From: Selaginella tamariscina
Taxonomy: Eukaryota > Streptophyta > Lycopodiopsida > Selaginellales > Selaginellaceae
Assembly (NCBI GenBank): GCA_003024785.1
Contig: PUQB01000744.1
Coordinates: forward strand, 1-64,000
Direction of reading: 5' to 3'
Length of the DNA stretch: 64,000 nt
Positions 563 through 50,540 of the stretch are shown here, one piece after another (within the stretch, counting starts at the first letter, position 1; the number at the start of each line of letters is the position of its first letter). The notes under the pieces are model-generated. The model made no database searches and had not been told where the DNA came from. It saw nothing but the letters and a program-made list of their open reading frames with translations. Made by a program: the position numbers and the translations under genes.

Positions 563-3185
563 TTATCTAATTAAGCTGGACGCTACTTCTTCAACAAGGC
601 TATTGAAGATACTTGCTTCCACCTGCGAGCTTATCCTCTGCAGCTCACCATGGATATCCATCCAGTCTCCCCAAGGTTAACATCTCTCCACCAAGTTCTC
701 CAGTGGGTACTCACATTCATTATGTTCGTGCTTGTATAGAGATATCTCCTTGTTGATCTGCTCGAGAAGATACTTCCCAGAGGGAATAGGTCGTATGCGT
801 GTCCCAGAACTGAACCACGGGTTAGCTTCCCATAGAAACCCGAACCTCTTAGTGAACGTCTCGTTGACAAGCTCGAACAGGAGTTGTCTATGGAGGCTCT
901 CCGGTCTCCTCTGGAGCTGAGTGTAGCCCCTTCCTATCTTTACCTTCCTGTGGTGTTTCTTTACATAGCCGCCGGGCTGCAATTCTGGCTCTGAATGTAC
1001 GTAGTCCTCCTCGATCTTTCCAAACAAGTAAGGGTCTATGGGACAGGTCGGGGAGTGCCAGTTGAAGAGGCAACCGACTGAGCTGGTGAGGAACCCTGAG
1101 GCGTGCAACAGTTTTGAGATGTATAACTCGTCAGCCGTGCAGCACAGTGCGGATGGTATAGATGCTTGTGGTGACGCCTCGCTTGCAGTATTCTCGGATG
1201 AGATTCTACCGTTTTCGTCCAGCTTAAGCCTCTCGAGTCGCATTTGCAGCTCTGTAAATAGCAAGAGTGAGGTCTAATGGACATGAAGCTATTACAAACC
1301 TTGTAGATCTGAGCCGCCATCTTCAAAGCTTACAGGACTAGGACTCTCAATGAATCCACGCTCAAGAACTGAAACAGGACTTGGCTGTTCAGATTTCTCC
1401 ACGTGTGTTTCAGAGGAGGTGTCTTCCCCAATATCAACGGATAGAAACGTTGGAGACTGTGCAAACTGTCGTTGAACAACGTAAAATATCAAAACTTTCA
1501 CGCACACAGCACACAACTTACGTTGTTTTGTTCATAGTTGTTTGCAAGTTGTTGTGCCTCTGTTTCATGGAAGCTCTGTATGTAATCGTCTTGAAAACCT
1601 GGTAAGACAGTGTGTTGTTCTGGCCCTTCTCTTTTCCGAGACGACGGTTTTGGAGGTGAGGTGTCCGTGGCTCACTCTTCTTCTTACCAAGGAGGCTGCT
1701 CTTCAAACTGGAGAGTTTGCCTTTGGAGCGCGTCCGGCTGTTTACATGACCGTGTTCTATCCAGTGATTGCTTTGGTTTCTCTTCGGGTAATGCCGGAAC
1801 CGATCTGGACCTTACCAGAAGCCTGGGGGAGTCGTCCGATGCAACTGTGGAAGTGGCCGGCTCCCTTACCAAAGAACTTGAGAATTTTCCCTCTGGGTTT
1901 GTTCTGGTTCTTCTCTTGGTGATTCTCAACAGCTGCCACCTTTAATTTCTCTACAAGCTGCTTATGTCCCTCCTTGCCAGATCTAAGCTTGGGGGTTCGG
2001 AAGGCTGTTTGTGGTGTTGAAGTCTCTTGAGTATCTTCTCGAGGAGGGCTCTGAGACTTGCGTGTCGGATGAGCCACACGACTTGCCGAGCTCTTGTGCA
2101 ATTGCATTCTCACGTACCTCCTTGGCAATTAATCTTGCTAACTCCCGGGCATTCACGGTTGAGTCAAGCGTGGTCTTCTTTTGGTTGGCCTCTCTTGACT
2201 GAGGAGTACTCTGTTTCTTACCGTTTGACTTCAGGAGGACGATTTTGTTATCGTGTTCCTTCTTCCTCGGGCTGGAGGATCTCAGTGCTGCTTTCTCTTC
2301 TCGGCTCGACCAGCTTCTGGAGAATCCTATGGTTTCTTGCACAGTCTTGGAGGTGTTTGCTTTCTTCGGTGTGTCTGTAGACACAAGATCCAGGACATGT
2401 TTGGAGAAGACGGAGTTCGGCTCCTGGAGGAACTTTACCAGGAACTCTTTGTTCGACTGGAGAAACTGGATGGCTTCAAGCATGTCTGGCCTCTGGAGCT
2501 CCTTCTTTGAGGTCCTGTTTCAGCCTCTGAAGCTCTCTCTCTTGTGGGTGGTTCCGGAACGGGAGCGTGTCCAGGACAAGAAATTCCTCCTGTTCTTCAT
2601 TCCTGGAACTCTTGCTCCTGTGCAATGTGCTTTGCTGGTAGTGTCTGGGATTCTCCCTCGTGCTCCTGCTCGTGAGAAACTCGCGCCTGTCCGACATGAG
2701 CTGCTTCCATTCGCCCAGGTTGTTTGTGCCGGCCTTTGAATTCTCCTTTGTCAAAACTGTCTGTTCTTCAGGGAGTGTCTCCAATCCCATAAGCCGCGCA
2801 ATTACGCTTGGAGAGCGACTCCTCGGCTTCTCTGATGTGCTCCTCATCTCAAAACCAAACTGATGCAGTAAATGCGGTGTTAGAGATATCCCTTCATTTG
2901 TCACATTTACTTACTGGAATTTCGTGTCTTGCACTTCCATAGCCTGCACTTGTCATGTCTAAGCTGTTCCTTGGAGCTTCAAAACCTGTAAAACAACACA
3001 CGTTATATAGTGTAATCAACGCACACCTGAGCAATTTTACCTTCAGAAAACTTCCTCTCGGAGAATGACTTCCTCGGGAGAGCGGGAGAGTCATCGAATT
3101 CTCCCACATTCCACATCATTGCATTGAAACAGCCTGGAACTTCTTGCCTAGTTCTAGAGTTTCTTCCCATTCTGTGAATGCTCAA
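563..3185 (-). CDS. LONGIFOLIA/TRM-like protein (DUF3741 motif, C-terminal DUF4378), apparent frameshifts
   Basis: Members of this plant family (TON1-recruiting-motif or LONGIFOLIA proteins) associate with cortical microtubules and affect cell elongation. Seen here on the minus strand in order: an N-terminal exon starting at 3185; a short exon near 3000-2930; a large exon with SPSVIARLMGLETLPEEQ near 2815-2765, the family's diagnostic block; a segment with LQSNKEFLVKFLQEPN near 2450; basic low-complexity sequence; the conserved EQPSPVSVLE block near 1400-1370; and a DUF4378 domain from about 1260 to 570 containing HRQLLFELVNE. Introns with GT-AG ends fit near 3046-3000, 2930-2862, 1520 and 1310-1265. 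The reading frame shifts near 2500, 2050 and twice near 650-680, the last pair being compensating changes in the DUF4378 core. The family assignment is firm. Whether the shifts are real or assembly indels is open. Confidence 0.8.
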
Positions 3186-29699: not shown

Positions 29700-32600
29700 T
29701 CTTAATCAGTTTGAGACCTTGCCTCAAACTCATTCACCAACTCCATCGCGTTCTGCAGATTCTCCAATGGTTCCCATGTCGACTCGCATGCCGGGTACCT
29801 TTCCACTTAACAAGATATTCACGTTTACGTTTTCGCGTCCATGAATGTTCCCCCTTTAATATGCCTCAACTTCAAATTCTTTCTCCTCACCAACTAACTC
29901 TGGAGGCGGACGTAATTATGATATCTATGTGGATGTTTCTCATCCTTGTGGAATGGCTCGCAGTTGACATGAAACACATTGTGTATTGTTCCCAACTCTG
30001 GAGGAAGATCTAACCCATAAGCCACTTTCCCTACTTGCTTCACCACCTTGTATGGACCTATGTAGTGCGATAGAAACTTCTCTCGAAAGAGTCGTTGGAA
30101 CCTTCAGGTTTTTGGTACTCAACAATACCATATCCCCAACCTGATACTCTACATCCCGCGATGTTTATCGTACTGCTGACGATACCTTTCCTGTGCTGCA
30201 GCCATCGCTTGACGAGCAGCTTCCCATGTTCGATACAATTGTCCCGTGAACTCTGCTACAGATGGAACTCGATTGCTATCGTCTTTCGGTAACACCATAC
30301 TCTGAGGAATACCACCCTTATTCCCAGTTAACACTTCCATCGGGCTACATCCGATTGCAGTGTGTCGAGTTATTGTAACATATCTCAGCCATATCTAAGT
30401 GTTCAGCCCAATCAAGTTGATCACCTTGAACATAGCATCTGAGATAGTCCTCGACTTGTCGGTTCACCCTCTCCGTTGACCATCCGTTTGTGGATGGTAG
30501 GCTACTGAACTTGAGCATCGTACCAAATGCTTAAACAATTCCCCAAAACTTCCCGTAAACGAGGATCCCGATCTGAGATCATCGTTTCCGGTAGCCGCGC
30601 ACTCTTATGACTTCGTGGAAGAACAACTTTGCTGCTTGAATTGCATTCACTGTCTCTACAGTTGGAATGAAATGAGCAACCTTTGAAAACGATCGACTAC
30701 CACCATGAGCATTAAAACCACAAGATTTTGGCAATCCCATGATAAAGTCCAAAGTAACACTTTGAAATGGCCGCTCTGGAATCGGTATACACTGCAACTT
30801 CCCAGCTCGTTTTTGCGATCGGCTTTTACTTGTTGACATGTGGGGCATGTCTTGACATACTTGGCAACATCATCTATCATACCCGGCCAATAGAATCCCT
30901 GTTTCAACAAAGCCAACGTCTTATGCCTTCCACCATGTCCTGCCAAAGGAACGTCGTGATGCTCTCTTAAGCCTCTCCCTCCATGTCCCTTCTGGAACAT
31001 AGAGTCTCTTTTCTTTATAATAAAGAACTCCATCTCGTACTGCAAAATGCCTGTTTGAGTGCATCCATTCGACTTTCTATTCCTGCTGGAATATTACCAT
31101 CTCTTCGTAATGATGAACTTGTTTCCTCTTTGCCACCAGGCTCAAAGCTCCTTAGCAAACTTGTCCTGAGGATACGCCGTCACAAATTCATCCACCAAAG
31201 TTGACACGGGTGCTGACATAATACGAAGATGACCCTTTCTACTGAGTGCATCAGCTACCACATTGTCCTTTCCCGCCTTATGTTGATTTCAGGCTGAAAT
31301 CGTGCCAACTTCTGCTGCCATCTAGCATACTTTGGCGATAGCTTCGGCTGCGTTTCAAAATACCTTAGAGTTACACTATCTGTCCAAACCACAGTGCCAT
31401 GACTTGGAAGATAATGACGCCAATACTCCAAGGAAGCAACAATAGCATACATCTCCTTTTCGTGAGTAGGCCATCGAGTTTGCGCGGCATCTAACTTTTC
31501 GAGAAAAAGGACACTGGATGTCCTTTCTGTTGCAATACACCACCAATTGCAAAGTCGGAAGCGTCACATTCTACTTCAAAGGGATCTTCAAAGATGGGCA
31601 ACTGCAAAACTGGCTCAGAAGAGATAGCCTCTTTGAGTTTGACGAAACGCACGTTGGCACTCTGGAGTCCAATGCCATGGAATGTTTTTCGTAAGATCTG
31701 TCAATGGGGCCGCTATTTCCGAGTAACCCTTTATGAATCTTCGGTAATACCCTGTCAGACCAAGAAATGATCTAACTTCATGCACGTCTTTTAAAGTCAT
31801 CCACTCAGTAATAGCTTGAATTTTCTTTGGGTCCATGGCAACCTCCCACCTGAGATCAAGTGTCCCAAGAAATCTATCTTGGTTTGACCAAATGCGCACT
31901 TGCTTTCTTTAGCATACAACTGGTTCTCTCTCAACCTCTGAAACACTTTTTCTAAGTGTTCCACATGTTCTCAATTGTCGAACTGAAAATCAGAATGTCA
32001 TCAATATACACCACTACGAACTCGTCTAGATAGTCTCTAAACACATCATCCATCATTGTGCAAAAAGTTGCTGGAGCATTGCACAACCCGAATGGCAAGA
32101 CTAGAAACTCAAATGATCCATAACGCGTTCGAAAAGCGGTCTTCTCAATGTCATTTCTCTACCCCAATCTGATGGTACCCGACTCAAGTCTATTCTTGAA
32201 AATACTTTGCTTTTGATAGCTATCAAATAAGTCGTCCACTCGTGGAAGAGGATACTTATTTTTGATAGTTATCGCGTTCAGTGCTCGATAGTCCACACAC
32301 ATTCGCATCGTACCATCCTTTTTCATTACAAACAAGATAGGTGCACCATATGGATCGACTAGGTCGAATGTGTCCTCGACCAACAATTCTGTCAGCTGTC
32401 TCTTCAATTCACTAACTCTTGAGGATTTAACCGATATGGGGCTCTTGCCGGTGGAGACGAACCTGGCAAAATCTCTATCTGTGGTCCACAGCTCGACGTG
32501 GAGGTAACTCGGCGGCAAGTCTTCTGGCACACATCCTAAACATGTTCAAGACTTCCAAAATAGGTTCGGAACAGTTCTTGACCATCTCCTATTTTGACTT

Positions 32601-33234
32601 CACCAGTATCCAAAACCATTGCAAGAAACACACGTTCCCGATGTCTAACTGCTTACGCAACTGAGTTAAGGTAAGGAACATAGGATTCCAATCCTTATCA
32701 GTTAGCGTTTCCATTTGAGCGTGTTTTCTAATGTCTTCTTTATCTGCTGCAAGCGTGATTCGATTATCTCCGAACCCCTCATTTCGATTACATGTTTATG
32801 GAACCATTCCATACCCAAACAAAGTCAAACCCCGTCATATTCAAGACAACTAAGTCTAGCTTAGCCTTCCAATCTTTGATTTGGACAGGAACTGCCCTTG
32901 CTATATTATTAGTATTTTGAGAACCTTTGCCAAAATTGATCTTTATTTCACACATCTTTATTACATCCAAATTCAATCGACGAGCTAGACTAGTCGATAT
33001 GAAGTTGTATGTTGCTCCAGTATCGATCATCATTCGGACTCGGTCCCCTCGTATCCTTCCTGTCAAATATAGCAAAGGGTCAGTTTTGTCTTGAATAGCG
33101 AATAAGGCAGGTTGTGTCTGGCACAACATTACCTCTTCTGACTCATCTTCCGGATCTTCAAGCGTTTCTGGTTCAGCAACTTCCTCTTCTACCATCGCCT
33201 TGAAATGTCCTGATTGTTGTGAGGGTGCCGACAC
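29700..33234 (-). pseudogene. Chromovirus pol: protease, reverse transcriptase, RNase H, integrase, chromodomain
   Basis: Domains in minus-strand order. Protease: MIDTGATYNFIS near 33,024. Reverse transcriptase: [13 protein letters not shown] near 32,310-32,270, then the catalytic [10 protein letters not shown] at 32,013-31,986. RNase H: from the DFAIGG motif near 31,555, through the FFSRK and EKEMYAIV blocks, down to about 31,255. Integrase zinc-binding part: CPTCQQ near 30,850, preceded by HHDVPLAGHGG. Integrase core: FQSVTLDFIMGLP near 30,770 and DRFSKVAHF near 30,690. Chromodomain: EYLVKWKG near 29,820 and TWEPLENL near 29,765, ending near 29,700. At least six frame changes interrupt the polyprotein, including one inside reverse transcriptase after 32,160 and one in the integrase core. 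As read it is non-functional. Confidence 0.9.
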
Positions 33235-34357
33235 TCTTTAGCAAAATGACCAGGCTTGTTACAATTATAACATTTCACGACCCCGCCTGCGGAACGCGGG
33301 GGAGCAGACTTTGGAGCCGATCCTTTGGCTGCTGAGGAGGTGGTAACGCCAATGGTTTCCGAAATCCGGTGGGTCTTGATGTGTCCGAAAACTTGGAACT
33401 GCCGACAAAGGGACTTGCACTTCGAATTGATGGCGATTGATCTGGTCGCCTATCAAACCTTCTGAACCCAGACTTTGGAGGAAACCTCCTTGGTTTAGGT
33501 TTTGCTTCCTCCCCTTTGTACAAGTCTTCTAACGACATGCCATAAGCAACCTTTTGAGCTGCCTCTTGACATTCCCGATAGCTTGTTGGCTTGTACCTTA
33601 AGATCTCCCTTCGCGTTTTCTCATTCAAGCTAGCCATGAAGCAACTTCGAGCTTCATCATCGCTCATATTTGGCACCAATCGCGTACACTTTCGAATCGA
33701 TAAACGTGGTCCATAGGACTTCCCCGAACTCCCTGTTGACAAAGTGCCAGGTCAGCACGCAATCGCAAACCGAGATCATCCGGCATATACTGCTTTTTGA
33801 TCTCCTTTTTCATGTGCTTCCAGCTGTTTCGGTATCCACGTTCACCTTCAACAATTCGCCACCAAGTCTTAGCTTCTTCTTTAAGAAACTGCTTGGCACA
33901 TGCAACCTTTTCTGTCTTTCTCACGGAAGCAGCCTCGAAATAGCTTTCCATATCATACAACCAGTCATCCAAAACCTTGTAATCCTTTGAACCCATGAAA
34001 TTCGAAGGCTTTACCGGTTTGAATTTACTGGGACCTCCACCAACTACTTCCGTCGAAGAATCTGATTCAGAGGAACCTGACTCTGAGTCATGCTTCTTCT
34101 TCTTTTTCCGTGTGTCTGGTTGCGGAACATCTGGCACTGCCGTATTCGTTGGAATCCGAACGGCAACATTATCGATTCGGTCGTTCAACCCAAACATCCC
34201 CTCGAAGTTCGTTTAGGGCATCCATCATTATTTCTCGCCAACCAGGTCGTTGTCTAACCCTAGGGGGTCGACCTGGATCAGCCTCATCCATCTCCTCATT
34301 TTGAGCCTCTGCGACAGCCCTCTCTGCCTCAGGCTCTGGTTGCTTTCTCTTGCTCAT
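33200..34357 (-). pseudogene. Chromovirus gag with zinc knuckle
   Basis: Starts MSKRKQPEPE at 34,357. A retrotransposon-gag domain spans about 34,000-33,640, with FLKEEAKTWW near 33,890 and SMDH-like spacing after it. A CCHC zinc knuckle, CYNCNKPGHFAKEC, lies at about 33,275-33,233. A frame change near 34,190 separates the N-terminal segment from the main domain, and another lies near 33,680-33,730. Gag forms the particle that packages the element RNA. The copy is disrupted as read. Confidence 0.85.
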
Positions 34358-36950: not shown

Positions 36951-36959
36951 ATCATGAGA
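36951..36959. repeat. 9-bp target site duplication of element A, left (ATCATGAGA)
   Basis: Identical to 45,398-45,406. Nine bases is characteristic of Mutator-like transposition. Joining the flanks here restores the protease reading (IGFGTDG), confirming the insertion site. Confidence 0.95.
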
Positions 36960-37000
36960 GGGTCTCGCGAAAAGGAGGCTCCGGCTCAGGAGGCTTCATA
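36960..37000 (+). repeat. Terminal inverted repeat of element A, transposase end
   Basis: GGGTCTCGCGAAAAGGAGGC, then CTCAGGAGGCTTC, matching the right end of element B in inverse orientation with two small changes. It is only loosely similar to the other terminus, GAGTGTCGCCATTTTGGAGG. Confidence 0.85.
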
Positions 37001-37002
37001 AT

Positions 37003-37146
37003 TATTCTAGTATATTCGCGGATATTCTAGGGTTATTCAAGCATATTCTAGAATATTCTCAAGAATATTCTAGAATATATAAGTTTTTTAATATGCCGAC
37101 TGGTTTAATATACGCCGACTAGCTTAATATATGCCAACTGGCTTAA
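37003..37146. repeat. Subterminal palindromic repeats of element A (left)
   Basis: Several TATTCTAG/AGAATATTCT palindromes are followed by three spaced copies of GCCGACT or GCCAACT with TTTAATAT or CTTAATAT. Similar arrays are found at all four ends of the two elements, so they may be transposase binding sites. Confidence 0.75.
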
Positions 37147-37158
37147 TAAAACATTATC

Positions 37159-40100
37159 TTAAACCCTAAACCATTTATCCTTGTAGCACCGGTGGTCATG
37201 AACTCTGTTGCAATTCACCAGCAAACGGTGGACCTCCATGTCACTGAGCGATCGCCTTTGTAGAAAATATGTGACTTCCGGGTTCAAGCCAAGCACACGG
37301 CTATAGACGAAGTACATGTGTACACATGGGCTCCAACTTTTGCTCTTCTGAAATGTAGAACAACTGCATGAAGGATAAGTATTAATAGTCACCTTTGCAA
37401 GTCATTTCCTGCCGACACAACGAAAGCCTCCTTCCGTCCTCTAGCTGTCACTTCAACATTTCGCACACAACCTAAAAACGTCTTGGCCTTGCGGAAATTC
37501 TTCTCTTGTTCCTTAGACATTTTTGTTGGAGTCCGAACCATACGTCCTTCGAAAGGTGGAATTGTTGTAGATCCAGCTCCACGTGTGGCGATGGTGTTTT
37601 GTCCTTCTGACCCTCATCTACTCTTCTGCCATCCCCTGTAAACCTTCCAGAACAAAGCCTGCATCCTGTAGTTCTCTGACCTCCTCACTTGTCAGCTTCG
37701 TTTCCTTGAGCACAGGCCAAACCGTTGGTGTGTTGGAATACGTGACCGAAGAATTTTGCCGTTTGGCCGCGTGAAACACCCTGAATCTTTTGGGCAGAAC
37801 CACATCATCTGTTGTACATACTCCTCATTCCCCAAGGCATCAATGTACATTCGTTTTCCATAGAACCTGGTGCTGGCACTCTGCTTGGATAACCGATTGG
37901 TTTCCACACAGAGCAGTTCCTTCCTGATTCATCCCCAAACACTTAACCTTACTGGATGCTCCGATTCGTCTGATGGCCCACTCTGTTTGAGCAATCTCTC
38001 TCTCCGAAACCTCTTCGAACCTTAACCTCTTTCTCCTGTTGTTTTGGACCACCCGCTCTATGTACTCTACATCATGTCTGTGTGAACGTCGAGCACAGAC
38101 TGTTCTGTTCCTGTGACTGTTCTCCTAACGTTTGCACTCGAACGTTAGTGGTACACGTGAACTCCGGGCTGGTCAAGTGTTCCTCGCCTTCCACCAGATT
38201 GATAATTGTGATGGAGATACACTTTTCCCCTCAGAGAGTTTGCGTTGCACTCGTTTCAACAGAGTTTCCTTCGAAGGCCTGACCCTGTATACCTCCCTTC
38301 TATTGCCGCTTTCACCTTCGCACTCTGCATAACTGCATCGGTGAGGTCTAACATTGTCGCCTCCAGCAGTGGTACTCTTTTGGCCAATCTTGCTCTTCTT
38401 GCTCTAGCGTGAATCACTTCAGCATTGTTTAGTTGGAACGCTCGCGAGTCCTTCTTCTGTCATGTCTCCCAGTTCCGCCATGGAGATGTGGTCCTCATGC
38501 CTGATCCACCAAGACGCCATGTCTTCAAAGCTCGAATGTTGACGCTCGTCCTTCCCAGAAAGACTCGAAAATTGCCAGTTGTTCTTTCTTAGATTGTTCA
38601 TTCAGTGCTGCAGGCCAGGCACGAGCAAGCTTCATGTGTTCTTCGCGATGTTCTTCTGCGATCCATTTCTTTGTCACCTGACGCACAGATTGCATAAAGT
38701 GAAACAGACAGCTTCTTCCCTCCCTTTCATCTTTGCTCCGTTGTTGAATACTTGGCGCAAGCTATCTATATCGCTCCAGCCTCATCCGACATGAAACCAG
38801 CAAAGTGACATTCTCCAAACCCCTGCTTCTTACAAACCTCTAGCATTGTGTTCAAGAACTTCAGCACTGCAACATTATCTTCGCGGCACATATCTGCGTA
38901 AGCTATAGTCACCATGGATCTGACACTGCAAGAGAGCGTTAGATAACGAAGATTAGAAAGTGTTATGAAGAGTTTTACAACTTACAATGGGTCATAAAGG
39001 TGTATTCCAACATTGTCGCCCAGTCTGGTATGCGGTGCGTGTGGTCCAGAACAACCCATTGATCATGAAGGTCTCCTCCACTTGACACCTTCTGATGTAC
39101 TCAACTCCTGAACCCGGTCCCTCAACTGTCATTTTGAAGATCAGAGGCTGCTCCTCAGCACCATGCAGTTCCATCCCCTGGAACATGTATGACGTGAATG
39201 AAAGGTATTGGCAGCTTTGTCTTCAGCTCCAGAAGACCCTCGTAACCCTCTCTAAAGTGTGTCCCTTCTGTCTTGATTGTGTAATCCAGTCCCGAGTCCT
39301 AAAGAAAAGGTCACGTCAGTGTGTAGAGATCTAAAAAAAAATACCTTCGATGGTTTGTTAGAGGTTCAAGTTTTGAGAGTAAACCAGTGTACGAGACTTC
39401 TCCTTCTTCCTTGAAAAGTTCTTCAAAGATGCTCACGCGCGGCTTGAAACTCAATCACTCGTTGATTGGTTCGCGGACTGCTCTTTACCACGTTGCTGAC
39501 ACTAGATCTGGCTCGTTGAACGTTTGAAGCTGACACTGAGGGGCTGACTGGATGCTGATGAACACCTCTGTGAATGAACAACCTTGTAAAAGAAATGTCG
39601 TCTGGCAGAATGTAGTACACATAAGCCGGACAAGTGTGCACCAGCAATGGCTCCTCTCCACAATGCTTACATTTTATGCCTATTACTTTGCCTGTCTCAG
39701 TTGTCTTTGCCTTCTCCACAGCACCCTTGAAGTGACATTCATTTGCTTTCTTCTCAAAGCCAAGTAGGGGCAAGTAGGATTGATGCATTGAAGATGTCCG
39801 ACACATGAACTTCGACTGACTCGCGCCGGAACATGCCAGTGTGTTGTGCTCGGGTGGTCCAATGGTAGCAGCCATCCTTGCGATTCATTCCCCGAGTACT
39901 TCTCTGTGCTTTCTGTCTTAGGGGGAAGTTTGAAAATGACATTTCCATTGTATATCTGCGGTAGTTCAGAGACTCGTTTAACTTCAGACGAACCAATGAG
40001 ATCCTTCCCTATCCTACATTTGTCTGCTCTTAGAAGACACACCAGCATGGATTCCTCACGCTCCTCTGTCCGCAACCTGAACAACGGGGCCCTTTGCCGG

Positions 40101-40304
40101 GCACATGTGTAAAAGACAAACTGGTTTGATGCATTGCCTTCTGGTAACAACTCCACATCTTCTTCAGAACTCGCAGAAACTGACATCAATTGAACCACAT
40201 GTATACTGAACCAACAAGGAATTTGAAAGCAATGTGAAGATCATTTCAAAACAAAAAGCATTTCCATCTTCATCGACTGGGAAATCTTTGTCAAATGCCT
40301 TCAT
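37159..40304 (-). CDS. Mutator-like transposase with SWIM zinc finger, multi-exon, probably broken
   Basis: Cuts and joins the element ends. From the N-terminal side: a start at MKAFDKDFP (40,304); an acidic stretch; a Cys/His region with INPTCPYL near 39,790, KCKHCGEEPLLVHTCPAYVY near 39,680-39,620 and FIHRGVHQHPV near 39,565-39,533, resembling the WRKY/GCM1-type N-terminal finger of MULE transposases; then MSDEAGA (near 38,800-38,780), a candidate DDE aspartate block; CLFHFMQSVRQVTKKWI near 38,720-38,670; and a C-terminal SWIM finger, CSC at about 37,371-37,363 and CVH at about 37,332-37,324. GT-AG introns fit 39,344-39,299 and 38,985-38,926. Several frame changes remain (for instance near 39,850, 38,790 and 37,395). 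Either there are more small introns or the gene is inactive. Confidence 0.75.
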
Positions 40305-41974
40305 AGGTAACTCTGGCCATGACAAACGCAAGGAAAAGCTCGATGGTTTAGGAAAGCAAAGCAAAAGATTAAAACACTTCCCTCGCCAAAAAAAATACAA
40401 TCGTTAACAATAAACGTGAATACACGTTTGTATATAATTAATTCATGCTGCCCAGTTCACAGTGTTCTTAATGATGTCCTCTCTAGTATCACCGATTTAA
40501 TTTAATTTCTACCTTTATGATTTGAAATATCTTCACATTTACCATTATTCACATATTTTTAAAAAACCCTAAATATTAATGTCACATTTATTCCGTAGGG
40601 TTCACTGTTTTCATTGCGGCTTAGGGTTTTTTGGTAGATAGGGTTTACTGTTTCCATTGCGGCTAGGGTTCTTTCAATCTCAGATCTGTTTCCACTGCGG
40701 TAGATCCAGAGGGTTTCTTTAATCTCAGATCTCAGAGTTACGGTTTCCACTGCGGCGCCATCCATTTCGACTCGATTCGTGCAGCGCCCAAGTATAACAA
40801 TGGAGATTTCTGTGCCGATTTAGATTCTCGGCACCATCCTGCTCAGCCGGCGGCCACAAGGTATGTGTAATTTCTGTATTTTATGATTTGCTGCTCAATG
40901 TATTTCTTTTTCCAGAGATATAGGGTCTTCTTATTTGTGCCGACTGAGAGCAACGGCACCATCCTGGTTCAGTCGGCAAACACAAGGTATCGTCGATTTA
41001 TTTATTTTTTTCCTTGCGGCTCAAGTATACGTGTCACAATGTTTTTTTTCAGAGTTAATGGGTCTTTCCATTTGTGCCGACTGAGAGTGACGGCACCATC
41101 CTGGTTCAGTCGGCAAAAACAAGGTATTTTCGATTTGTTTTTTTTTGCTTTCTGGCTCAAGTATTCGTATCACAAGGTTTTTTTTTCAGAGTTAATGGGT
41201 CTTCCCATTTGTGCCGACTGAGAGTGACGGCACCATCCTAGTTCAGTCGGCAACAAGGTATTTCGATTTTTATTTTTGCTTTCTGGATCAGTATTCGTAT
41301 CACATTGTTTTTTTTCAGAGTTAATGTGTCTTCTCATTTGTGCCGACTGAGAGTGACGGCACCATCCTTCTTCAGTCGGCAGCCACAAGGTATGCGATAT
41401 TTATTTTTGCTTTCTGGATCAAGTATTCGTATACATTGTTTTTTTTCAGAGTTAATGTGTCTTCATTTGTGCCGACTGAGAGTGACGGCACCATCCTTCT
41501 TCAGTCGGCAGCCACAAGGTATTTTGAATTTGTTTATATTTTGCTCTGCGGCTCAAGTATCCGTATAACAATGTTTTTTTTCAGAGTTATAGTGTCTTCC
41601 CATTTGTGCCGACTGAGAGTGACGGCACCATCCTTCTTCAGTCGGCAGCCACAAGGTATTTTGAATTAGTTTTTTTTTTCTTTGCGTCTCAAGTATTTCT
41701 TTTAAAACAGTTAATGGGTCTTCCCATTTGTGCCGTCTGAGAGGGACGGCACCATCCTATCTCAGTCGGCACCATTATCTCTTCTGTGCCGTCTGACAGA
41801 GTCGGCACAAACTATCTCAGTCGGCAGGTTTTTTCTTCTACATCTCTCTGCCGACTGAGAGGGTCGGCAGCATCTAGCTTGAGTCGGCAGCCACAAGGTT
41901 AGTCATCTTTGTTTGTTTTTTTATTTTGACTCCTCATCAATTGACTTGTGTGTTTACTTTCCAGAGTTCCCAAA
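40305..41974. promoter_or_regulatory. Divergent intergenic region between transposase and cargo gene
   Basis: This is the only space between the two divergent genes of element A, so it should hold both promoters. At 40,600-40,765 short repeats of GTTTCCACTGCGG and TTTAATCTCAGATCT occur. The exon-like tandem array fills 40,800-41,900. No unambiguous TATA box could be assigned. Confidence 0.45.
40800..41905 (+). repeat. Tandem array of exon-like units with GCCGAC hairpins
   Basis: About ten units, the complete ones about 130 bp. A typical unit reads TTTTTTTCAG, AGTTAATGGGTCTTCCCATT, TGCCGACTGA, GTGACGGCACCATCC, TTCAGTCGGCA, ACAAG, GTAT. Each central part therefore looks like an exon bounded by an AG acceptor and a GT donor, with TGCCGACTGA pairing to TCAGTCGGCA. 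Unit cores start near 40,937, 41,074, 41,211, 41,340, 41,469, 41,606 and 41,730, then shorter ones near 41,792 and 41,853; the divergent first one is near 40,810. The first coding exon starts with the same CAG/AGTT junction. Confidence 0.9.
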
Positions 41975-44900
41975 ATGGTGAGAGCTTCAAAACGTCTACT
42001 AGAGACTGCGCCTGATGAAGAGCCACGGGAAGAGAAGAGGATATCGAAGCAGAAGCGAGGCAAGAGAGGAGAACCATCTAATGTACCAAAGGAGGATCCT
42101 CCAGTGACTCAGTCTGGAGTAGTAGCAGTTGAGCAAGAACAGCCTCCACCAACAATCACAGATTTCCCGGAGAGCTCGTCGCAGTTGCCTCCTTCATCCG
42201 CTGAGGTTGCAGTCCTGAACGAGCAAGTGCAGATGACAGAGGCAGCTGAAGCTAGCGAGGACGACTTGGAGGAGGCAGTCAGCAAAAAGAGAGGCCGCGG
42301 GAAAGCTGATTCAAAAGGCAAGAAGGCGAAGAGCGATAAGGAGCCGAAGGAGTTATACAGCATACCGGCGAGCCTGCATTTGGAGAGCTCAGCAAACCTG
42401 CTCGACAAAATTACTATCAAGGGACTTGGTGATCCTCCTGATGTGCCCATCTGCAGAATACATTCCAACGAGGTGGTTCGACGAGTGAACCCAGGGGACT
42501 TGGACAGGCTGGTGTCATCGTTGAAGAAGGCTGGTTATCTACGCAACACGGCCATGTTCATTCTGTCCATCGGAGATCGACTCACTGCTGAGGAGCTATC
42601 GGAGCTGTCGAAGGACACGATTCAGTACGAGCAGCACCGGTCTTTCGAGCAAGCTCTTACTCAGCCGGAGTACAAACAGTGGGCTTCAAGGCTCTCAAAC
42701 AGGAAGTTTAGCTGTTGGGACGGGAACCATAGGCTACAGGCTTTGCAGAAGCTGTACCGAGAGGATGCAGAGGACAACCAGCGATGGGCTATTCGCGTTC
42801 GATCGAGTTTCATCTCCACGGAGAACCTCGACATTCTTCAATTGGTTTCGATGTTCCAATCGATTAACATGTGAGTATTTTCTTTTCTTTTTGTTAAGAG
42901 TTTAGACTTACAGTTTCGTTGAACAGATCTTCAGCAACATCTGTGGAAACAACGCTACCACATATTCTCCTCGCTGTAAAGGCGGTCTGCACTAGTACAG
43001 AAGGAACTCAGAAAATCCTCGAGTCACTCACGGAGGTTGATCGTCTTGAGGTGCGGAAGTGGAAGGAGAGTTCATCAGGAAAGACGGCTTGGCATCCTCT
43101 TCCGAACCTGATCTGCGCAAAGATACTTTTCAAGGTAACCTCCGATTTAATTTATAGGAAAGAAATTTTTAACTTGTTCTATGTGCAGAACGAGATCGAC
43201 GATGATCTCGACAGAGCAGTCACCAGTGCTAAGGGCAATCCACAGGTTGAGGTGAACCTGAAGCAGCTAGTATACAAGAAGCATGACAAGCGTATGCACA
43301 AGTTCCTCTCCATCATAGACCCAGACTTGGGGGAGGAGTGGTTCCAGAAGGTGACAAACATCTCTCATAAGCAGTGTCGCTGGATGGGCATTGAGAAGCT
43401 GTATGCGATGTCAAGGGCGAAGATTCCAAACATGCTGCGACTCCGATACCTCAACAAGCTCACCCGTCTCGAATCCAAGGCAGAACAACAGACACTTGGG
43501 CTACCGGGCATGCAGGACAAAGAGTGGATCAAGTGGTTCACCTTGGACTTATATTGGAAGGCTGTGCGCGAGGAAGCCATTCAGATCCTTAAGGGGTTGC
43601 GAGAGGATGGTGAAGAAGTTGGAACGGATGTCGACTTCATGAGCTGGTTTGACGAGATGAGAATTCGGAGCAAGTGCCTGGTCTTTCAGCCCTTCCATGA
43701 CTGCATACGGTTCACTTATTCGATGGAGCCGAATGAGTTTCTGGAGCGTGAGGAATCTGCGCGTCGGATGATATGGAGGTAAGCTTTCAATCCAGCATTG
43801 CTACTGTCTGACTTTGTGTTGCAGGTTCATACTGGCGAAGCAAATGACACCGTCCCATACGATGAAGCTGTGGACAGATCATACAAGCGAGCCTCACATG
43901 TGGTCGAAGAGCAGAGGAGCTCTAACACCGTTCGAACGGGAGCATGTTCCATTCTGGCTCGACTGTCCGTCGCAACAGCCACCAGCTTGGGAGAGCACAC
44001 TATTCGACATGCACGCCAATGATCTACCAGCGATTCTTTGGGAGCCAGAAGAAGTAGAGGCTATCAAGAAGAGCAAGATGAAGAAGACGGTGCGGAAGAC
44101 AACTACACCTGCAAAGGGATCGGGAGCGGGACCAAGCTCTTCTACAGCACCTCCGCCAGCATTCGACTTTACAATCAATGAGGTACAGCCACTTGTAGCT
44201 AGTTTGGACATCAAGGACGACCTGATGACCTTCATCCCGACCCTGGCTGCATCCCGTGGATCCTACGACCTAGCTGTGTGCGACATGGAGGAGATGAGCA
44301 GGTCTTTCTTCGAGCCAGGTGCTTCCCAGACAGAGGTGTACACCAAGCTCCGAGAACAGGTTGACAGACTACATACGGTTGAGTCACAAACGTTGTTCCA
44401 GGAAGTGGTAGGTGAATACGGCTTCAACCTCATCATCCTCGACTTGCCCAATGAGCTTGTATATGGAGGTGCTAGCATCAACAAGGACATTGTGCAGCTA
44501 GATCCGGTGAAGTTTGAGGAGGCCTTGCAGTTCAGTGGAATGCACTTGGCAGCGAGTGGTTTCATGGTCGTCTTCGCGAGTTCTCCTTCTGTTTCGGCGG
44601 TGATTCAGGCGGCTGCAGTAATCAACTTGGAGGTTGCAGGGACTTACAGCGTCTACCGTGCACGAGGCTGGGGATACCGTGACAAAATTAAGGTAAGCTA
44701 GCTATTCAAGTTCAAGTTTAACTTGGTCTATGTGGCAGGATAACTTGTTAGTTCTCTTGGTGCTGCAAAGCTCTGAGAAGAAGTCGAAGAGGCCAAACCC
44801 TCTGGCGTTGACGAACACGATCCTCGTCGACACTGCCGACCGTTATCAGGAGGCTTGGTAAGGAAGTGCTTTGCTATGTTTATCCTAATGGAAGATTGTG

Positions 44901-45201
44901 CAGGATTATGATTCAACCGAAGAGTGTTCGACTCATGCAGCTTTTGATCGAGCGTCTCAGTAGACCTGGCGACCTAGTCTGGGATATTGGTTCCGGAACC
45001 GGGTCATCATTGTTAGCTGCCGTCGAGCTCGGAAGGAATATTATAGGAACCGAGAAGAGTTTCGAACTCTCTAGGTTGGCAACAAACAAGCTTGCAGAGA
45101 ACATTAGACCAGAAGAGTTACCTACTCAAACACCTCCACGTCCAAGCGTAACTGGTGGTTCGAGAACTGCAGCTTTACTTAAGATGAAGAAGAAACTTTA
45201 G
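41975..45201 (+). CDS. ParB-like plus N4/N6 DNA methyltransferase-like protein, MULE cargo
   Basis: Six exons: 41,975-42,870; 42,927-43,134; 43,189-43,778; 43,825-44,692; 44,739-44,857; 44,904-45,201. All introns have GT-AG ends and the joined frame is open for 992 codons. Residues 1-130 are charged and disordered with basic clusters, a possible nuclear signal. Residues about 155-290 form a ParB-like domain with CRIHSNEVVRRVNP, LVSSLKKAGYL and the signature CWDGNHRLQAL (248-253 core). The middle is helical and unassigned. The C-terminal part resembles beta-order amino-methyltransferases, with motif IV before motif I: NLIILDLPNELVYGG (DLPN at 771-774) and DLVWDIGSGTGSSLLAAVEL (DIGSGTG at 921-927, the SAM-binding loop). 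Normal motif IV is (D/N/S)PP(Y/F/W), so DLPN may mean altered or lost catalysis. The 54-nt second intron keeps frame and lacks a stop, so retention is possible. Confidence 0.85.
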
Positions 45202-45283
45202 CTAATGTATATTGAGTAATAAATTAAGCTAATATAAAAAAAAATTAAAAAGAAATACAACAGTTTTAATAGAATTCTTTTTT

Positions 45284-45397
45284 GCCGACTGAGGCCAATA
45301 CTGCCGACCAGAAAGAATATTCCAAAATATTCTAGAATATTCTTGAATATTCGAGCCCAGGCCTCCTGGGCCCCAAGCCTCCAAAATGGCGACACTC
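45284..45397. repeat. Terminal and subterminal repeats of element A, cargo end
   Basis: On the minus strand GAGTGTCGCCATTTTGGAGG starts the terminus. AGAATATTCT-like palindromes lie at 45,325-45,350, and TGCCGACTGAGG and TGCCGACC at 45,283-45,310. It matches the left end of element B almost base for base. Confidence 0.85.
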
Positions 45398-45406
45398 ATC
45401 ATGAGA
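45398..45406. repeat. 9-bp target site duplication of element A, right (ATCATGAGA)
   Basis: Identical to 36,951-36,959. Confidence 0.95.
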
Positions 45407-45997
45407 CTGTATGATAAATTACTGCCGGACAATTCCCAGAAAACATTTCCTATATTGCATCAAATATCATTACTATGCAGTAATATAAATGTATATATAT
45501 AACTTTGAAGTTATAACATTAAACTCAATAACAGTACTTTGTTTTGTAAGCTGATAATCAGGTGTCCCGTTGATGTAAATTGAGATGGGATGTCTCTGAA
45601 CCAGCATCTCTCTGTGGTGATGCCGTTGTTTTATATTATGTAGCGGAAAGCAGCATCTGTCCAGTCTCCATTGCAGCTTTTAGAGTGACAATCCACTAAT
45701 TGTTGTTCAGACAAGGAGACCATTCTCCTAGTTCTAAGGTAGTTGATTCCTTCGATAACGCCTGTTGCTGCATATGCCCAGCAGCTTCCTGCAGTGTATT
45801 GCAGTCGAAATTTAAACTGTAGAGAGAGAGAGAGATGTTTACCACAAGAACGCTGGTCTTTTACAGGAGTTACGGCACCAACATTTTGCCAATCAAAACT
45901 GAAACATTTACGTCCACGATTGGGAGAGAATGCTACGTTATCAGGTGAAGAAGATATATCTGAGGAGCTATTGATTTGATTACAGATGCAAAGATGG

Positions 45998-46006
45998 CTC
46001 TAAACT
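45998..46006. repeat. 9-bp target site duplication of element B, left (CTCTAAACT)
   Basis: Identical to 50,541-50,549. Its complement, AGTTTAGAG, is the codon context of AEFR in the protease propeptide. Confidence 0.95.
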
Positions 46007-46187
46007 GAGTGCCGCCATTTTGGAGGCTTGGGGCCCAGGCTTGAATATTCTAGAATATTCTAGAATATTTTAGAATATTTTAGAATATTCTTTCTGGTCC
46101 TCAGTCAAAAAACAAAATTTCTAGTAAACTATTGTATTTCTACCTTATTCTTTTTTATATTAGCTTAATTTATTACTCAATACACAT

Positions 46188-49100
46188 TAGTTAAAGTTTC
46201 TTCTTCATCTTAAGTAAAGCTGTAGTTCTCGAACCACCAGCTAGGCTTGGACGTGGAGGTGTCTGAGTAAGTATTTCCTCTGGTCTAATGTTCTGTGCGA
46301 GCTTGTTTGTTGCCAACCTAGAGAGTTTGAAACTCTTCTCGGTTCCTATAATATTCCTTCCGAGCTCGATGGCAGCTAACAATGATGATCGGTTCCGGAA
46401 CCAATATCCTAAACTAGGTCGCCATGTCTACTGAAACGCTCGATCAAAAGCTGCATGAGTCGAACACTCTTCGGTTGAATAATCATTCTACACAAACTTC
46501 CATTTGGATAAACAAAGTAAAGTACTTTCTTACCAAGCCTCCTGAAAACGGTCGGCAGTATCAACGAGGATCGTGTTTGTCAACGCCAGAGGGTTTGGCC
46601 TCTTCAACTTCTTTTCAGAGCTTTGCAACACCAAGAGAACCAATAAGTTATCCTGCCACATAGACCAAGTTAATTGAACATGAATAGCTAGCTTACCTTA
46701 ATTTTGTCACGGTATCCCCAGCCTCATGCACGGTAGACGCTGTAAGTCCCTACAACCTCCATGTTGATTACCGCAGCCGCCTGAATCACCGCCGAAACAG
46801 AAGGAGAACTTGCAAAGACGACCATGAAACCACTCGTTGCCAAGTGCATTCCATTGAACTGCAAGGCCTCCTCAAACTTCACTGGATCTAGCTGCACAAT
46901 GTCCTTGTTGATGCTAGCACCTCCATATACAAGCTCATTGGGCAAGTCAAGGATGATGAGGTTGAAGCCGTATTCACCTACCACTTCCTGGAACACCATT
47001 TGTGACTCAGTTGTATGTAGTTTGTCAACCTGTTGTCAGAGCTTGTGTACACCTCTGTTTGGGAAGCACCCGGCTCGAAGAAAGACCTGCTCATCTCCTC
47101 ATATCGCACACAGCCAGGTCGTAGGATCCACGGGATGCAGCCAGTGTCGGGATGAAGGTCGTCAGGTCGTCCTTGATGTCCAAACCAGCTACAAGTGGCT
47201 GCACCTCATTGATTGTAAAGTCAATTGTCGGTGGAGGTGCTGTAGAAGAGCTTGGTCCCGATCCCGATCCCTTTGCAGGTGTAGTTGTCTTACGCACCGT
47301 CTTCTTCATCTTGCTCTTCTCTACTTCATCTGGCTCCCAAACAATCGCTAGAAGATCATTGCTATGCACGTCAAATAGTGAGCTCTCCCAAGCTGGTGGT
47401 TGTTGCGACGGATAGTCGAGCCAAAATGGAACATGCTCCTGTTCGAACGGTGTTAGAGCTCCTCTGCTCTTCGACCACATGTGAGGCTTGCTTGTATGAT
47501 CTGTCCACAGCTTCATCGTCTGAGACGGTGCCATTTTCTTTGCCAGTATGAACCTGTAACACAAAGTTAGTCAGTAGCAATGCTGGAATGAAAGCTTACC
47601 TCCATATCATCTGACACGCAGACTCCTCATGCTCCAGAAACTCATTCGGCTCCATCAAATAAGTGAACTGTTTGTAGTCATGGAAGGGCTGAAAGACCAG
47701 GCACTTGCTCCGAGTTTGCATCTCGTCAAACCAACTCATGAAGTCAACATCCATTTTAACTTCTTCACCATCCTCTTGTAATCTCTTAAGGATCTGAATG
47801 GCTTCCTCGCGCACAACCTTCCAATATAAGTCCAAGGTGAACCACTTGATCCACTCTTTGTCTTGCATGCCTGGTAGCCCAAGTGTCTGTTGTTCTGTGG
47901 ATTTGAGACGAGTGAGCTCGTTCAAGTATTGAAGTCGCAGCATGTTTAAAATCTTTGCCTTTGACATCGCGTACAGCTTCTCAATGCCCATCTAGTGACA
48001 CTGCTTATGAGAGATGTTCGTCACCTTTTGGAACCACTCCTCCCCCAACTCTGGGTCTATGATAGAGAGGAACTTGTGCATACGCTTGTCATGCTTCTTG
48101 TACACTAGCTGCTTCAGGTTCAGCTCAAGCTGTGGATTGCCTTTAGCACTAGTGACTGCTCTGTCGAGATCATCGTCAATCTCATTCTGCACATAGAATA
48201 AGTTAAAAACTTCTTTCCTATCAGTTAAATTGAAGGTTACCTTGAAAAGGATCTTTGTGCAGATCAGGTTTGGAAGAGGATGCCAAGCTGTCTTTCCTGT
48301 TGCACTCTCCTTCCATCTCCGCACCTCAAGACGATCAACCTCCATGAGTGACTTGAGGATTTTCTAAGTTCCTTCAGTACTAGTGCAGACCACTTTTATA
48401 GTGAGGAGAATATGTGGTAGCGTTGTTTCTATAGATGTTGCTGAAGATCTGTTCATTGAAATTGTAAGTCTAGACCCTTAATGAAAAGAAAAAAAAATAC
48501 TCACATGTTTATCGATTGGAACATCGAAACTAGTTGAAGATTGTCGAGGTTCTCCGGAAATGAAACTCAATCAAACGCAAATAGCCCATCGCTGGTTGTC
48601 CTTTGCATCCTCCCGGTAGAGCTTCTGCAAAGCCTGTAGCCTATGGTTCCCGTCCCAGCAGCTGAACTTCCAGTTTGAGAGCCTCGAAGCCCACTGTTGT
48701 ACTTCGGCTGAGTAAGAGCTTGCTCAAAAGACCGGTGCTGCTCGTACTGAACCATGTCCTTTGATAGCTCCGACACCAGCTTGTCCAAGTCCCCTGGGTT
48801 CACTCGTCGAACCACCTCGTTTGAATGCATTCTACATATTGGCACATCAGGAGGATCACCAAGTCCCTTGATAGTAATTTTGTTGAGCAGGTTCACTGAG
48901 TCTCCAAATGCAGGCTGGTCGATATGCTGTATAACTCCTTCGGCTCTTTATTACTCTTCGCCTTTTTGCCTTTTGGATCAGCTTTCCCACGGCCTCTCTT
49001 TTTGCTGACTGCCTCCTCCAAGTCGTCCTCACTAGCTTCAACTGCCTCTATCATCTCCACTTGCTCGTTCAAGACTGTAACCTCAGCGGATGAAGGAGGC

Positions 49101-49312
49101 AACTATGACGAGCTCTCTGGGAAATATGTGATGGTTGATGGAGGCTGCTCCTGCTCAACTGGTACTACTTGAGACTGAGTCACTGGAGGATCCTCCTTTG
49201 CTACATTAGATGGTTTTCCTCTCTTTCCTCGCTTGTGCTTTGATATCCTCTTCTCTTCCCGTGGCTCTTCATCAGGCGTAGTCTCTAGTAGACGTTTTGA
49301 AGCTCTCACTAT
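46188..49312 (-). pseudogene. Broken copy of the ParB/methyltransferase-like cargo gene
   Basis: Runs on the minus strand parallel to the gene of element A through its whole length. It keeps GFNLIILDLPNELVYGG near 46,970-46,920 and a WMGIEKLYAM-like block near 47,990. Damage: the start ATG is ATA (49,312-49,310); a deletion removes the part after LDKLV near 48,775, where SSLKKAGYL stood; a frameshift precedes the WDGN motif near 48,690; TAG replaces a Trp codon at 47,995-47,993; and frameshifts occur near 47,090 and in the SAM-binding loop near 46,390. Because DLPN is present here too, that motif predates the split of the two copies. Confidence 0.9.
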
Positions 49313-49389
49313 TTTGTAAACTCTGGAAAGCAAACACACAAGTCAATTGATTCGGAGACAAAAGGAAAAATAAAAATTAAAGATGACTA

Positions 49390-49765
49390 ACCTTGTGGCT
49401 AAGCTAGATGATGCTGACCCTTTCAGTCGGCACAAAAAAGTAGATGAGCAAAACCTACCGACTAAGACAGGTGCCGACCCTCTCAGTCGACACAGAAAAG
49501 TAGATGAGCAAAACCTGCCAATTGAGACAGGTTGGTGCTGACCCTCTCAGTCGGCACAGAAAAGTAGATGAGCAAAACCTGCTGACTGAGACAGGTTGGT
49601 GCCGACCCTCTCAGTTGGCACAAAGAAGTAAATGAGCAAAACCTGCCGACTGAGACAGGTTGGTGCTGACCCTCTCAAACTGCACTAAAAGAGATAATGT
49701 AAGAAGTATGCTGACTGAGCTAGGATGGTGCTGTCCCTCTTAGACGGCACAAATGGGAAGACCCA
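49390..49765 (-). repeat. Hairpin/exon-like array of element B
   Basis: Repeats of about 60 bp with GCCGACTGAGAC, CTCTCAGTCGGCACA and AAAGTAGATGAGCAAAACCT. They correspond to the array at 40,800-41,900 but with a different unit, so the array expanded separately in the two copies. It ends in AGACCCATTAACTCT, the start of a unit of the element A type. Confidence 0.8.
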
Positions 49766-49800
49766 TTAACTCTAAAAAAAAATGAAAAAATTGTGAAATT

Positions 49801-50283
49801 GTTCTGGAAGGTTTACAGGGGACGGCAGGAAGAGTAGATGAGGGTCAGAAGGACATAACACCATCGCCACCACGTGGAGCTGGATTTACAACAATTCCAC
49901 CTTTTGAAGGACGCATGGTCCGGACTCCAACAAAAATGTCTAAGGAACAAGAGAAGAATTTCCACAAGGCCAAGACGTTTTTAGGTCGAGTGAAAAATGT
50001 TAAAGTGACAGTTAGAGGACGGAAGGAGGCTTTTGTTGTGTCGACAGGAAATGACTCTGTAAAGGTGACTATTAATACTTATCCTACATGCAGTTGTTCT
50101 ACCTTTCAGAAGAGCAAAAGTTGGAGCCCATGTGTACACATGTACTTCGTCTACAGCCGTGTGCTTGGCTTGAACCTGGACGTCACATATTTTTTACAAA
50201 GGCGATTGCTCAGTGAGATGGAGATCCATCATTTACTGATGAATTACAGCAGAGTTCATGACCCACTGGTGTTACAAGGATAA
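49801..50283 (+). pseudogene. Remnant transposase last exon with SWIM finger (element B)
   Basis: Reads MSKEQEKNF, RKEAFVVSTGNDSVKVTINT, then CSC and CVHMYFVYSRVLGL, the CxC...CxH SWIM pattern. It corresponds to 37,159-37,560 of element A. It contributes a zinc-binding module without the catalytic core. The frame from the start at 49,915 is open to 50,283, ending earlier than the element A version because of a one-base difference near the end. Confidence 0.85.
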
Positions 50284-50540
50284 ATGGTTTACATAAAAAT
50301 GCTTTGTTTGGTTAGTAATTTATTGAACTTTTTTATAAAGTATTAAAAAAAATTCTAAAAATTTAAATGATTTATTTGTTGGTTGGCGAATATTAAGCAG
50401 TTGGCATATTAAAAAAAACTTATATCAAAAAATATTCTTGAGAATATTCTAAAATATGCTAGAATATACCTAGAATATCCACGAATATACTAGAATAATA
50501 CGAAGCCTCCTGAGCCGGAGCCTCCTTTTCGCCGAGACCC

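Follow-up and report, generated by a model that had tools for sequence, protein, structure and literature searches.

What might a plant DNA transposon gain from a second gene whose protein joins a ParB-like half to a methyltransferase-like half? The question is raised by a 64,000-nucleotide window of the Selaginella tamariscina genome (assembly GCA_003024785.1, contig PUQB01000744.1, positions 1 to 64,000), the whole stretch of DNA analysed here. A complete element of 8438 bp at 36960..45397, a copy of what is called family A below, carries a transposase gene on its minus strand and, divergently on the plus strand, such a cargo gene. The best explanation, to which a probability of about one in two is given as a whole, is that the element is a plant DNA transposon with two genes and a high copy number, active in the recent past, whose cargo would protect it from silencing. 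The cargo protein would be an element-specific DNA-binding regulator, built from phage-type parts and resembling in its action the VANC proteins of Arabidopsis VANDAL transposons.

The limits of the element were set from its target site duplication (TSD) and from the ends that it has in common with other copies. Perfect 9-bp duplications, ATCATGAGA, lie at 36951..36959 and 45398..45406, and alignment of the two ends reveals imperfect terminal inverted repeats at 36960..36998 (plus strand) and 45359..45397 (minus strand). The ends and flanking duplications of the 9-bp-flanked element reported in a preliminary description of this locus were thereby re-found. A second family-A copy occupies 46007..50540 on the minus strand, also between perfect 9-bp duplications (CTCTAAACT), and is 84-91% identical to the first in three main blocks. 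It adjoins the first element in inverted orientation and is internally deleted, the deletion falling in the transposase. The cargo had been described as intact and as shared by both copies; both do contain the gene, but it is frameshifted in the second and intact only in the first. Among ten further A copies whose ends were read, the duplication is perfect in three (C113b and C466 by script, C893 by eye), agrees at 8/9 bases in C113a and has a one-base interruption in C725, while in five of the ten one end lies outside the stretch, in N, or is altered. The length of 9 bp falls within the 8-11 bp typical of the duplications of Mutator-like elements (MULEs).

The cargo gene is divided into six exons, all on the plus strand. 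Exon 1 (41975..42870) encodes residues 1-298, including the ParB-like region at about residues 157-280, and is followed by exons 2 (42927..43134) and 3 (43189..43778). Exon 4 (43825..44692) holds the first half of the methyltransferase fold, and after exon 5 (44739..44857) exon 6 (44904..45201) provides the S-adenosylmethionine (SAM)-binding part, the region of Pfam family PF01555. Removal of five introns of 46-56 bp, each of them GT-AG, yields 992 amino acids and a stop. The open six-exon, 992-codon gene described earlier is thus recovered, as are its two signatures, CWDGNHRLQAL and NLIILDLPN...DIGSGTG, in the protein. Searches of the host assembly (300.7 Mb in 1391 contigs) gave at least 133 matches to exon 1 (a lower bound, from the best 132 of 1781 candidates scored) and at least 136 to exon 4 (best 135 of 1920 candidates scored); such counts take in the best-scoring candidates only, and a divergent single-copy host relative would escape them. 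Dozens of copies contain these two exons with an open frame and 99-100% identity. For exon 1, 73 of the 133 matches, counting the window copy, cover residues 1-298 at this identity and are stop-free, and in 69 of these the length is unchanged as well. In a set of thirty A loci, each read with flanks of 1.5 kb, 14 (among them that of the window) remain open and spliceable from exon 1 to exon 3 and on through the initial 544 bp of exon 4, and in one the cargo stretch is interrupted by an N gap.

Profile comparisons show that the C-terminal half of the cargo has the fold and the motif order (IV...X-I) of the beta-class N6/N4 amino-methyltransferases (PF01555). This family is the sole Pfam match of the protein (residues 898-953, E=1.1e-8). 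A profile search of the PDB with the cargo places MboIIA, CcrM and DpnA on top (best E=0.00095), and exon 6 retrieves DNA methyltransferase families from PHROGs (best E=3.8e-12). The tetrapeptide DLPN (44441..44452, plus strand) takes the position of catalytic motif IV (DPPY), and motif I, DIGSGTGSS, follows at 44983..45009 on the same strand. For comparison, seven phage proteins in which a methyltransferase follows a ParB domain (L096, L097, L099-L102 and L107) were assembled by means of a ParB probe, from 12 regions fetched of 50 listed out of 696 matching records; L101 was kept in the set although its two motifs run in reverse order. When the cargo proteins of family A and of the related family B described below were aligned as a pair with these seven by hhalign, 187 columns were matched (E=7.9e-5 for a single comparison, probability 61%), with FNLIILDLPN opposite the strand that bears DPPY and DIGSGTGSS opposite the GGSGST loop of the phage proteins. 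Pfam, the PDB ranking and the phage alignment all agree with the methyltransferase ancestry first proposed for the gene.

The cargo is also carried by a second element family, B. A search of the assembly with PF01555 gave at least 150 matches (best 150 of 739 candidates scored), and the 30 loci that were fetched and typed divide into 22 of family B and 8 of family A. Three B elements read whole (L081-L083) have the same divergent two-gene layout, with a 9-bp duplication that is perfect in two and agrees at 8/9 bases in L081; in the main blocks the identity of L081 with each of L082 and L083 is 98.3-99.1%. Three of six B copies examined have an open cargo, of 1011 amino acids in L086 and of 1015 in L087 and L088, which are identical. 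Between the families the cargo proteins are 56% identical (66% over exons 2-3 together). Over 983 aligned codons, pN is 0.30 against a saturated pS of 0.816, the differences at the three codon positions amounting to 0.35, 0.27 and 0.63, and all five introns lie at homologous residues with the same phases (2,0,2,0,2) and unlike sequences. A low pN beside a saturated pS, together with shared intron positions and phases in two families, argues that the cargo has been selectively maintained and is not a passing capture. For a closer pair, A and L110, dN is 0.028 and dS 0.073 over 288 codons of exon 4. Two loci taken at first for open variants of 79-83% identity, L108 and L109, are by eye A copies with compensating indels and were excluded from the selection test. 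Substitutions among the 30 A loci number 9 synonymous, 8 nonsynonymous and 0 stop in 2562 bp, small indels left out, where neutrality would predict about 3 nonsynonymous changes per synonymous one; this points the same way but is weak evidence, because the copies were chosen by exon-1 identity. As judged from these substitution patterns, the cargo is an integral gene of the element under purifying selection. Its same place and same introns in A and B, and its many copies, also bear out the earlier view that it is part of the element family and not a one-off acquisition.

No protein relative of the cargo was found at E<=0.01 among 5.8 billion proteins, or at E<=10 when the A/B alignment was used as query against the same set (word-based searches with 7992 and 7985 candidates scored), and none was confirmed in 137 pattern stretches of viral_contigs or 119 of genome_contigs. 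Among the titles and abstracts listed in searches of open-licence PMC papers, none describes a eukaryotic transposon with a ParB-methyltransferase gene.

A candidate for the DNA on which the cargo might act is found in the noncoding parts of both families. Their commonest shared 8-mers are TGCCGACT (19 in A, 20 in B) and GCCGACTG (17 and 20), the Markov expectation for GCCGACTG being 0.16 (A) and 0.13 (B) per element. In A, the TGCCGACT(G) words form inverted pairs in 129-137-bp repeats, in an array between the divergent genes (40939..41889); in B, they form tight palindromic pairs in repeats of about 40 bp. A copy of the word also lies near each end in A and B, in the window as a single GCCGACTG at 37095..37102 and at 45284..45291 (both plus strand), and in B as GCCGACT only at the left end. 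In every one of the 30 A loci, GCCGACTG occurs 9-19 times in the 1.5 kb that precede the cargo, and the 2.4 kb of cargo gene read lack it. The three B elements contain 19, 20 and 16, with none in the flanks read (the left flank of L081 is mostly N), and the rest of the window has three, all within the second copy. Another shared word, AGAATATTC, is clustered beside both ends in A and B. The corresponding subterminal clusters of AGAATATTCT / TTCTAGAA in the window lie at 37034..37081 on the left and 45314..45353 on the right, and the word recurs in family-B noncoding DNA. These AGAATATTC/TTCTAGAA clusters, which presumably resemble heat-shock elements, are possibly transposase sites or heat-responsive, and AGAATATTC would suit the transposase as a candidate site. 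With two proteins and two words, an assignment of the cargo to TGCCGACT(G) is suggested, and the TGCCGACT(G) arrays could be the putative target of the cargo protein. What counts as independent evidence is that TGCCGACT(G) is common to A and B although their arrays are built differently, and that it is found near both ends in each.

The proposed mechanism is simple to state in conditional form. The cargo protein would bind TGCCGACT(G) in the arrays that separate the two genes and close to the element's termini and, once bound, would maintain expression from the element, or access to its DNA, in the face of host silencing. Several observations weigh against this proposal. The TGCCGACT(G) word may instead be a site for the transposase or for some host factor, and the copy number within the arrays is not independent evidence because the arrays are tandem duplications. 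Small indels frameshift 15 of the 30 A loci within the part of the cargo read; the window copy is the only A copy read that is open over all 992 codons; and the frame of the B cargo is broken in three of the six copies (L081, L082 and L083). Some of these frameshifts, perhaps or even probably, are assembly errors. Over 5060 bp, for instance, the left half of the window element differs from copy C466 by 18 mismatches against 65 gap positions, and such an excess of indels over substitutions between near-identical copies suggests uncorrected long-read errors in the assembly.

The remaining objections concern the N-terminal half. No profile library calls it ParB (Pfam, NCBIfam, PHROGs and PDB searches), the two-box score described below is ordinary in B (reached by 165/1000 shuffles, with the best pair at the homologous place), and the AlphaFold model of the ParB region or exon has a mean pLDDT of 41, too poor for use. 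PF02195 matches neither the cargo protein nor its segments nor any part of the plant's own genome; as a positive control, it finds matches in 10 of 14 control genomes, and it has no match in six phage records. The ParB segment yields only chance-level tblastn matches (for A one phage at E=7, for B one plasmid at E=6), and hhalign against phage ParB aligns Box I alone (22 columns, E=0.0044, probability 8%). The support comes from a two-box matrix built on 12 phage ParB sequences, a thirteenth (L103b, 1 of 13) having been dropped before counting because it has no ParB box. Cargo A scores 11.8, a value reached by 0/1000 shuffles, with its best pair at residues 167 and 246. The first member is a Box I-like stretch (residues 167-194; 42473..42556, plus strand), and the second, after an insertion between the boxes, is a Box II (GxxR)-like stretch, SCWDGNHRLQALQKL, which begins at residue 246 (42710..42784, plus strand). 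Taken by itself, Box II of A has a slightly negative score (-0.9), which means that the two-box support derives mainly from Box I; GNHR in cargo A satisfies GxxR as the box is defined in the text of PMC12704722. A hidden Markov model of the 12 phage ParBs ranks the cargo first of five proteins (E=0.12). A diverged ParB-type domain is thus supported but not proven. The preliminary description had named a ParB plus methyltransferase protein, and profile searches of the 992 residues return the methyltransferase (PF01555) but no ParB family; its ParB half stands weakly, through the two-box comparison with phage ParBs in family A.

If a diverged ParB-type domain does form the N-terminal half, the cargo would descend from a phage-type ParB-methylase fusion, and a more specific scenario becomes conceivable. 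A domesticated phage ParB-methylase could operate as a self/non-self system: it would load at TGCCGACT(G) as ParB does at parS, spread or bridge, and mark or shield the element from silencing, its methyltransferase half now being a SAM-dependent sensor or reader. This scenario is offered tentatively, as a possibility.

It is doubtful that the cargo is instead a transposition cofactor, be it a ParB-type nickase, an end-binding protein or a MURB-like integration factor. Precedents for such a function can be cited: the bacterial ParB-methylase fusion Bce_0392 is reported as DNA-nicking (PMC5512222), and mudrB, the second gene of maize MuDR, is apparently required for integration, according to the text of a MULE survey (PMC6446971). 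The GCCGACT words near both element ends in A and B would also fit a protein acting there, but most copies of the word lie between the genes and not at the ends, and the dominant word of the subterminal clusters is a different one, AGAATATTC.

The preliminary description had inferred a ParB-guided protein that modifies or reads DNA, perhaps to mark element ends or counter host silencing. That it is an active DNA amino-methyltransferase (6mA/4mC) marking element DNA, with the ParB part for targeting, seems unlikely. The beta-class catalytic consensus is [DNS]PP[YFW], and DLPN differs from it at two of four positions. DLPN was found across A and B in 29 of the 30 typed loci, one locus not being resolved by the script, and has been kept although A and B have diverged to saturation at synonymous positions. 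Motifs named as catalytic in amino-methyltransferases by the bdelloid study PMC8885841 are SPPY, DPPY, NPPY and DPPW. On the other side, motif I (DIGSGTG) is set in a beta-class fold, the nearest architecture found is that of the phage ParB-methylases with DPPY, and a captured amino-methyltransferase does act at transposons in the case of the bdelloid N4CMT, which has SPPY (PMC8885841). The presence of DLPN in place of DPPY in both families nevertheless makes ordinary DNA methylation by the cargo doubtful, and an active writer is not supported, though DLPN, being conserved, might form an active site of an unusual kind. On balance, the methyltransferase half is probably a SAM- or DNA-binding module and not a normal DNA methylase.

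Two further proposals fare worse. The position of the array between the two divergent genes would agree with a regulator of the element's own promoters unrelated to silencing, such as a copy-number repressor or a ParB-like clamp bridging elements; this is improbable, as the very high recent copy number would argue against strong self-limitation. That the cargo is a captured host gene carried as a Pack-MULE-like passenger is barely credible: host genes are frequently acquired by MULEs, as the survey text records (PMC6446971), but this gene is full-length in both families, with purifying selection and conserved introns, so that the proposal is already refuted if the selection stands, and no obvious host counterpart appears among the matches listed (best 132-135 candidates, with surroundings read for a part).

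The partner of the cargo is a SWIM-type transposase gene at 37175..40320 on the minus strand. Its frame is broken in the window by small indels, which look like assembly error or decay, and is open in C466 (L084), where three exons encode 1019 amino acids. The transposase of family B (L081) is also open, has the same three-exon layout and is 65% identical to that of L084. SWIM (PF04434) is detected below threshold throughout (E=0.011-0.04 in A, 0.0027 in the relative P0004), and a CxC...CxH pattern is present in the A, B and P0004 transposases. The Pfam MULE DDE model, PF10551, does not match the 1019-residue transposase or its core in hmmscan, comparison with one real MULE of the same genome is no better than chance (hhalign and pairwise shuffles), and a DDE-like pattern is seen by eye only. 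Four metagenomic proteins, P0001-P0004, are related at 28-31% identity (E 6.8e-60 to 4.2e-53) and share GFM.D and GRER.C.FH with the transposase; the one that extends far enough also has the C-terminal SWIM. No relatives were confirmed in viral_contigs, and an AlphaFold model of P0002 is too poor for use (pLDDT 41). By these alignments the transposase is a member of a wider family with metagenomic relatives, and it is treated as the SWIM-type transposase of a 9-bp-TSD element, probably but not provably a distant MULE. Of the earlier label "Mutator-like", then, the 9-bp duplication and the sub-threshold SWIM remain, but the Pfam MULE model and the comparison with a real MULE are negative; a SWIM transposase gene is indeed in the window element, but not in an unbroken frame.

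Together with this element, P0001-P0004 make up an uncurated transposase family without a Pfam MULE match. Ordinary MULEs are also present in the genome, with 77 PF10551 matches that do not include the window. They form a separate family (for example at C447:478506-478793 of G000); an identical score is common to 16 of the 77, several of which sit in open frames of more than 600 amino acids.

The surroundings of the element are mixed. A papain-type cysteine protease frame at 45634-45999 (minus strand) adjoins it, between the two copies; retrotransposon gag and integrase zinc-binding frames of a long terminal repeat retrotransposon lie at 30656-34212 (minus strand); and VARLMGL and DUF4378 frames at 680-2910 (minus strand), probably one gene, are presumably of the plant LONGIFOLIA/TRM type. 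A GT47 domain is also among the neighbours, and together these domains point to a plant as host.

How does this element compare with known systems? To our knowledge, VANC is not ParB- or methyltransferase-like, and few plant transposon-borne proteins that defeat silencing are known; the cargo would be a second, structurally different anti-silencing candidate, one that comes with a putative DNA target and belongs to an element amplified to high copy number. Like the cargo, VANC is the second protein of a transposon group with a 9-bp TSD and SWIM, as far as the MULE survey describes it (PMC6446971). VANC21 is described as binding a short motif arrayed in the noncoding DNA of its own element (PMC5735166), and VANC acts for VANDAL21 through YAGTATTAY arrays that have grown by tandem repeat formation, according to the accounts given in PMC5735166 and PMC10398659. 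The arrays here are similar in that a short motif stands in tandem in the element's own noncoding DNA and in that its copy number differs between copies, but VANC21 motifs lie in one orientation, whereas TGCCGACT(G) occurs as inverted pairs; the likeness described is one of arrangement. MuDR with mudrB, and other MULEs with second reading frames, are likewise two-gene elements with a SWIM transposase and a 9-bp TSD (PMC6446971). They differ in that the MULE model does not call the family-A transposase, and in that a methyltransferase is not named in the main text of the MULE survey (0 occurrences; PMC6446971).

The bdelloid N4CMT, as presented in PMC8885841, is likewise an amino-methyltransferase fold of bacterial type, taken up by a eukaryote and linked to transposon biology; it is, however, a transposon-silencing host gene with SPPY, whereas the gene described here is transposon-borne and has DLPN. 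The present element cautions against taking each methyltransferase-like transposon gene for a writer of DNA marks. Closest in architecture are the phage and prophage fusions of ParB with an N6_N4 methyltransferase (seven examples here; such fusions are described in the text of PMC12704722, which suggests for them a role perhaps in anti-defence or in phage-host interactions). As in the cargo, with its ParB-like region and box-like stretches, the ParB domain precedes the methyltransferase, Box I precedes the GxxR box, and motif IV precedes motif I in six of the seven (by eye; L101 is reversed). The phage proteins are intronless, have 404-450 amino acids and carry DPPY (CPPY in L101), whereas the cargo has 992-1015 amino acids, extra sequence inserted between its ParB-like boxes, a long conserved central part, DLPN and six exons, and its carrier is a eukaryotic transposon. 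The apparent origin of the cargo lies in phage-type proteins, the phage and bacterial proteins being the parallels found, and the element thus offers a setting in which it can be tested whether a ParB/methyltransferase chimera is able to act on chromatin in a eukaryotic nucleus.

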